In this document: positions 26,318-26,346 of the stretch, in pieces
Layout: each line of letters begins with the position of its first letter
Position numbering within the stretch: the stretch's first letter is position 1
Source of the DNA: Pseudolabrys sp.
GTDB taxonomy: Bacteria; Pseudomonadota; Alphaproteobacteria; Rhizobiales; Xanthobacteraceae
Length of the DNA stretch: 64,000 nucleotides
Direction of reading: 5' to 3'
Assembly (NCBI GenBank): GCA_017849615.1
Contig: JAFIGS010000017.1
Location: 525,290-589,289 of the forward strand
Program-made: the position numbers and the translations under genes
The notes under the pieces: generated by a model
What the model saw: the letters and a program-made list of their open reading frames with translations, nothing else
Told to the model about the DNA's origin: nothing
Databases searched by the model: none

Positions 26318-26346
26318 TTGAGTCAGAGTTGAGTCATGGTTGAGTC
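26318..26346. promoter_or_regulatory. Triple GANTC array across the ccrM start
   Basis: GAGTC occurs at 26320, 26331 and 26342, exactly 11 bp apart, each preceded by TT (TTGAGTC). The third lies inside the coding sequence and the ATG at 26336 falls between the second and third. GANTC is the CcrM methylation site, so the enzyme's own gene carries one site per helical turn around its start codon. Methylation-dependent autoregulation is inferred. Confidence 0.8.

Follow-up and report, generated by a model that had tools for sequence, protein, structure and literature searches.

The three GAGTC sites that surround the start codon of ccrM in a 64,000-nucleotide stretch of Pseudolabrys DNA (the window) probably belong, with a probability of roughly 0.6, to an mRNA element of about 100 nt, which would extend from the predicted 5′ end of the transcript to codon 14 and control translation or mRNA stability. 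By comparison among relatives, this part of the gene is shown to be a conserved block with two predicted stems that carry paired changes and with a short sense-strand repeat around the ATG. If true, a conserved RNA element at the ccrM start adds a post-transcriptional layer to the control of the gene, as well as a cis target for finding its reader.

The ccrM locus and its three GANTC sites

The product of the open reading frame (ORF) at 26336-27478 contains an N6_N4_Mtase domain (PF01555, E 4e-68) and a C-terminal RAMA domain (E 4e-19), and matches CcrMI of PDB 6pbd over its full length (E 3e-158), which agrees with the naming of the gene as ccrM in the first-pass annotation. An in-frame TGA at 26330 makes the ATG at 26336-26338 the first possible start. 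Three copies of TTGAGTC had been described across this ATG at 11-bp steps, and they are found in the window sequence, GAGTC occupying 26320-26324, 26331-26335 and 26342-26346, with the start codon between the second and the third. The features of the locus are:

25176-26105, minus strand: zinc-peptidase gene (PF04228), divergent from ccrM
26238-26253, plus strand: degenerate CtrA-type box TAAA-N7-TTCAC (TTAA-N7-TTTAC in relatives), from conserved columns in 61 family sequences
26265-26270, plus strand: putative -10 element CATGAT, with CA...T conserved
26277-26279, plus strand: predicted transcription start, from the spacing to the CtrA-type box
26279-26307, plus strand: hairpin I, GTCGG (26279-26283) with CCGAC (26303-26307)
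26296-26351, plus strand: six G[AC]GT[AC] repeats, GCGTC at 26296 and 26309, GAGTC at 26320, 26331 and 26342, GCGTC at 26347
26320-26346, plus strand: three GANTC (GAGTC) sites at 11-bp steps, a phasing unique among 100 distinct family leaders
26336-27478, plus strand: ccrM coding sequence, 380 aa
26354-26375, plus strand: hairpin II, 26354-26362 with 26367-26375, inside the ccrM coding sequence at +19 to +40 (codons 7-14)

In the 4.4-Mb genome, TTGAGTC-N4-TTGAGTC has two overlapping matches, both at the ccrM start. The 864 kb examined for GANTC (the window and 800 kb of the same genome, about 20% of it) hold 1274 sites, or 1.47 per kb, and a single triple within 22 bp start to start, that of ccrM, against 0.67 expected from random placement; this is also the single exact 11/11 triple, against 0.003 expected, so a close triple alone is not rare, whereas the exact phasing is. 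GANTC is about threefold under-represented in the window as a whole (110 sites against 308 in dinucleotide shuffles). The lack of a Shine-Dalgarno word, also pointed out earlier, was seen again, as none was detected upstream of the ccrM ATG by a crude test, but it tells little because the same test detects such a word in only 11 of 52 window ORFs, and it was dropped as a special feature of ccrM.

Relatives were collected by two ccrM searches, the first of which gave 589 confirmed loci, 80 of them kept (60 for a family set and 20 for a set from other families of the order), and the second 59 non-own matches from 58 other genomes, with 2 of 61 genomes lacking a match. Together with the window, the family set comprises 120 loci, whose 100 leaders distinct over -60..+45 relative to the ATG are not as many independent events, and the two genome sets may overlap. 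The order set comprises 105 loci, those 20 and the remainder from further searches, and was used without L238 (a duplicate of L223), without L082, L278, L282 and L287, which have no in-frame ATG, and without three incomplete matches (G245-G247); its starts were picked by rule, except that for L250 and L267 a script set the start at an ATG further upstream once the loci had been inspected, and some starts may be wrong. A set from other orders comprises 88 of 100 matches.

Among the 100 distinct family leaders, a GANTC ends at the ATG in 69 and at least two lie upstream in 65, the third site, at +7, occurs in 10, and the 11/11 triple occurs in the window only. The distance from an upstream site to the pre-ATG site is 14 (31 cases), 13 (23), 12 (6), 11 (3), 10 (2) or 6-8 (11), and the congener L113 and L003 (CcrM 92% identical) have two GANTC sites 10 bp apart and no third. 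The proposal of one site per helical turn is not supported by these counts: judging from the leaders compared, the even spacing is peculiar to this genome, where the 11-bp step would be an accident of linker lengths. What did hold among the relatives is the presence of the sites in a conserved ccrM leader, with at least two GANTC in -60..+11 in 65 of the 84 distinct family leaders that have hairpin I (the main clade), while neither the spacing nor the third site is kept.

Predicted promoter, repeats and hairpins of the leader

A CtrA-activated promoter would be expected to carry TTAA-N7-TTAA about 39 nt ahead of its start. A pattern search locates the CtrA-type box in 57 of 78 distinct relatives but not in the window, where it was placed by alignment. 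It precedes the G of GTCGG by 39 nt in 42 of these 57 and by 38-40 nt in 55, and in the window the degenerate box lies 41 nt away by hand count. The putative -10 element sits 13 or 14 nt before the same G (52 and 17 counts in 78 distinct leaders). A full CtrA motif is found at -39 of the Caulobacter ctrA P2 promoter, according to a passage in PMC4287350. Conservation begins at GTCGG, where the CtrA-type box predicts the start, which leads us to infer that the transcript and the conserved block share their first base. At 26181-26208, between ccrM and the divergent zinc-peptidase gene, lies a second cluster of TTAA-type words, GTTAACCTCTGCTAACTCGCGGTTAAAG, which is possibly another CtrA site.

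The G[AC]GT[AC] repeats stand on the sense strand and are concentrated between roughly -40 and +30 relative to the ATG. Over -60..+20 they number 4.86 per family leader (1.23 in shuffles) and 0.04 on the reverse complement (0.14), and in the other families of the order 1.74 (0.44) and 0.22 (0.17), respectively; a control stretch at -150..-70 gives 0.17 in both sets. The window has an additional GAGTT at 26326, within the repeat stretch 26296-26351, and the family shows a further repeat cluster at +50..+59, with GAGTC at codon 18, which is possibly just coding. Among 655 ORFs in the 864 kb, with the best of several candidate starts taken for every ORF, ccrM has six repeats in -50..+20, two ORFs have three and the rest at most two.

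A covariance model of the leader scores 104.8 bits at ccrM and 27.2 bits at the next place in the genome, which was considered as an element at another gene and rejected, being an intergenic terminator-like hairpin. The centre of this second match (L317, G000:C27:499448-499481) lies between two minus-strand ORFs, one of which resembles a substrate-binding protein, and forms a GC hairpin that lacks a T run. In 41 family genomes, the model gives 30 matches of at least 83 bits, all at listed ccrM starts by comparison of coordinates by eye, and at E 0.1 it matches in 38 of the 41. Two family genomes (G158 and G177, listed as 100% and 89% complete) have neither a ccrM match at E 1e-60 nor a leader match at E 0.1, and another (G156) has two ccrM matches, L214 and L217, on the short contigs C50 and C51 with nearly identical leaders, which reflect either a duplicate gene or a two-strain assembly.

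Two alignments were chosen by hand, one of 38 rows (A1) and one of 67 of 103 distinct leaders, picked from those with hairpin I (A2); a third (A3), which contains hand-picked members of other families, was kept out of the counts. In the 67 hand-chosen main-clade rows, hairpin I is paired in 99.7% and hairpin II in 99.6% of cells. Two pairs of hairpin I have changes on both sides, and two-sided changes amount to 17 cells, 13 of them at one pair, against 6.5 in shuffles, none of 500 being as high; the number of pair types in the same rows is not beyond shuffles (72 of 500). Hairpin II retains at least 8 of its 9 pairs in all 68 distinct in-register family 33-mers (118 of 120 loci, rows unselected), a count that omits L213 and L227, which the start rule puts out of register; L213 still shows the stem and L227 only a weaker, different fold. 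Pairs 7 and 9 each occur as C-G, T-G and T-A, pair 8 once as T-A and pair 5 once as A-T. Paired changes, as expected of a structured leader, were therefore found in both stems, and transcription would run from hairpin I. Outside the family, hairpin II occurs in the same register in 7 of 99 other order members and in none of them in eight shifted registers, so this hairpin is characteristic of the family, with scattered occurrences elsewhere, whereas the repeats are order-wide.

The coding sequence under hairpin II is constrained at the nucleotide level. Across 61 genes, codons 4-8, 12 and 13 show no synonymous change, and the synonymous entropy in codons 1-15 is 0.28 of the expectation, against 0.52-0.91 in the other full 15-codon blocks. 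The hairpin folds better than its synonymous recodings (z < -2) in 75 of 96 family genes, 13 of 99 genes from the rest of the order and 4 of 69 from other orders, and the +16..+45 segment of the window folds at -29.2 kcal/mol, a value reached by none of 132 control ORFs.

Folding predicts a middle stem, formed between the first two copies of TGAGTCA, that would hide the ATG; it was rejected because its covariation score equals that of shuffles. The ATG region is not more closed than controls (0.46 unpaired, with 90 of 132 control ORFs at or below this value). An intrinsic attenuator was likewise rejected, there being no T run after hairpin II. A search of 25900-26700 with Rfam 15 gave no family match, the sole match up to E 5 being CC3513, below the cut-off, on the opposite strand and outside the element.

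Possible mechanism and related systems

In the RNA element proposed here, transcription would begin at hairpin I from a promoter activated by CtrA, a protein or a small RNA would bind the GMGUM repeats (GAGUC, GCGUC, GAGUA, GCGUA), and hairpin II, just downstream of the initiating ribosome, would set how the start codon is used or how stable the mRNA is. The output of CcrM would thus be tuned after transcription. The usual footprint of the initiating ribosome ends just before +19. A stem at +19, past this footprint, repeats on either side of the start and a further stem where the transcript is predicted to begin together suggest an element that controls translation or stability and is read by a trans-acting factor. 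A simple closed-start model is disfavoured, since the ATG region is not unusually paired and the middle stem lacks covariation.

CcrM contacts its target strand separately and acts on single-stranded DNA, and the reader could conceivably be CcrM itself, which would bind the GMGUM repeats of its own mRNA as a mimic of one GANTC strand and repress its own translation. Indirect support comes from these properties of the enzyme and from the repeat cluster being peculiar to ccrM among the 655 ORFs, and we regard this version as quite improbable. Methylation of the RNA by CcrM was rejected as unlikely, because it is contradicted in vitro, the Caulobacter enzyme being described in a passage of PMC6787082 as not active on single-stranded RNA.

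The element resembles structured cis-acting mRNA leaders and translational operators in being a gene-associated structured leader with short repeats around a start codon, and differs from them in having no Rfam 15 family match and in that one of its stems lies inside the coding sequence. Precedent for post-transcriptional control of a rhizobial cell-cycle gene is given by GspR and CspA5, which act on ctrA mRNA in Sinorhizobium, as described in part of PMC5928217; the gene is a different one, and no link to the ccrM element was found in that part. Control of the timing and amount of CcrM is described through CtrA, DNA methylation and rapid degradation by Lon in passages of PMC2217572. Among the matches listed from the open-access literature, no paper on a ccrM leader RNA was found, and the passages matching ccrM mRNA in PMC2217572, PMC3885167 and PMC8959179 do not have the ccrM leader as their subject.

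The ccrM leader of Caulobacter crescentus has two GANTC sites. There the gene is under CtrA control and methylation is thought to feed back (passages in PMC3973325 and PMC2217572). The Pseudolabrys locus is like it in the gene, in a putative CtrA-activated promoter and in GANTC near the start, and unlike it in that GAGTC is here one spelling of a GMGTM repeat with N fixed and that two predicted RNA stems flank the start.

Alternative readings and the spelling of the sites

Conservation of the N-terminal peptide (SRRGA..APR) and of codon choice alone, with the hairpin as a by-product, could be argued from the SRRGA and APR residues, which are kept in 58-61 of 61 genes. Seven of these codons, however, show no synonymous change, synonymously recoded versions fold less well in 75 of 96 genes, and pairs 7 and 9 of hairpin II each appear as C-G, T-G and T-A, so this already disfavoured reading is very improbable. 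The direct repeats could be read as DNA instead, as sites downstream of the transcription start for a regulator, be it SciP-like or another repressor. The leader does contain GTCGC, complementary to the SciP half motif GCGAC, and a Caulobacter ccrM promoter is among the SciP-motif promoters in the parts of PMC4287350 that deal with this motif; the same parts place the Caulobacter motifs 60-90 bp upstream of the start, whereas here they would be downstream, and SciP sites were set aside as a partial fit only. Moreover, the other families of the order repeat TTGMGT and not GTCGC, the strand bias is strict and the repeats are positioned around the ATG, and the stems with G-U pairs and the synonymous constraint point to RNA. 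Binding of a regulator to the DNA is improbable.

Feedback by methylation, in which CcrM would methylate GANTC in its own leader and alter transcription, as is thought for Caulobacter, was the reading offered in the first-pass annotation, and it is unlikely. The product of GcrA reads methylated GANTC, which is the methylation target of CcrM, and the GcrA gene is encoded in this Pseudolabrys genome. Of the 84 distinct leaders that have hairpin I, 65 contain at least two GANTC sites, ccrM of Caulobacter is most probably affected by methylation (a passage in PMC3973325), and GANTC is 99.76% methylated in cultured B. diazoefficiens (a passage in PMC4840208). The predicted start nevertheless lies about 40-65 nt upstream of the sites, and their spelling does not follow the enzyme, since methylation of GANTC puts no constraint on N. 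In -60..+20 of the 100 distinct family leaders, N is G in 161 of 165 GANTC sites, against 49 of 267 inside ccrM (+20..+1000), so that, GANTC being conserved in most main-clade leaders, the Caulobacter-type pattern of conserved GANTC with a free N is not what is found. Among single departures from GAGTC at the pre-ATG site, nine change the methylated A, one the first G and one N; five of the nine A changes belong to the clade that lacks hairpin I and may have had GCGTC as its ancestral spelling, and within the main clade the A changes in four leaders (L139, L207, L211, L230) and N in one (L024), so that the methylated base varies more than N. Where hairpin I is missing, in 16 distinct leaders, -60..+11 holds no GANTC (11 leaders) or a single one (5), yet all 16 carry two to six G[AC]GT[AC], and deeper relatives have GCGTC, GCGTA or GAGTA in place of GAGTC. 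Across 98 distinct leaders from the rest of the order, -50..-1 shows hardly any excess of GANTC (0.19 against 0.15 in shuffles), in contrast to TTG[AC]GT (0.56 against 0.05, about 11-fold) and G[AC]GT[AC] (1.18 against 0.33). The deep signal is therefore the GMGTM repeat, with GAGTC as its local spelling, and methylation alone does not explain the sites, since N is fixed, the A varies more and GANTC is barely enriched across the order. Each repeat nevertheless holds to one spelling of its own among main-clade leaders. This is not accounted for by a freely degenerate motif and leaves room for an added role of GANTC there.

The locus is like the GcrA/CcrM systems with GANTC in core promoters in having GANTC near the start of a cell-cycle gene and in encoding GcrA. 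The arrangement TTGAC-N1-6-GANTC-N3-8-GANTC, however, occurs in none of the 120 family loci, the window included, and in none of 100 other order loci, whereas TTGAC, 2-5 nt, GANTC, 4-7 nt and GANTC follow one another at 36 of 88 ccrM loci of other alphaproteobacterial orders (L085-L112, L142-L201), with a mean of 0.00 in mononucleotide shuffles. There the two sites are most often 11 bp apart (19 of 36) and N is free (C 37, G 13, A 12, T 10), as if two methylation sites were built into the ccrM core promoter, and these promoters fit better than the window as candidates for methylation feedback. The comparison separates GANTC that looks like a methylation input, in the other orders, from GAGTC as the spelling of another motif, in the family of the window, a separation that matters wherever GANTC is counted in promoters.
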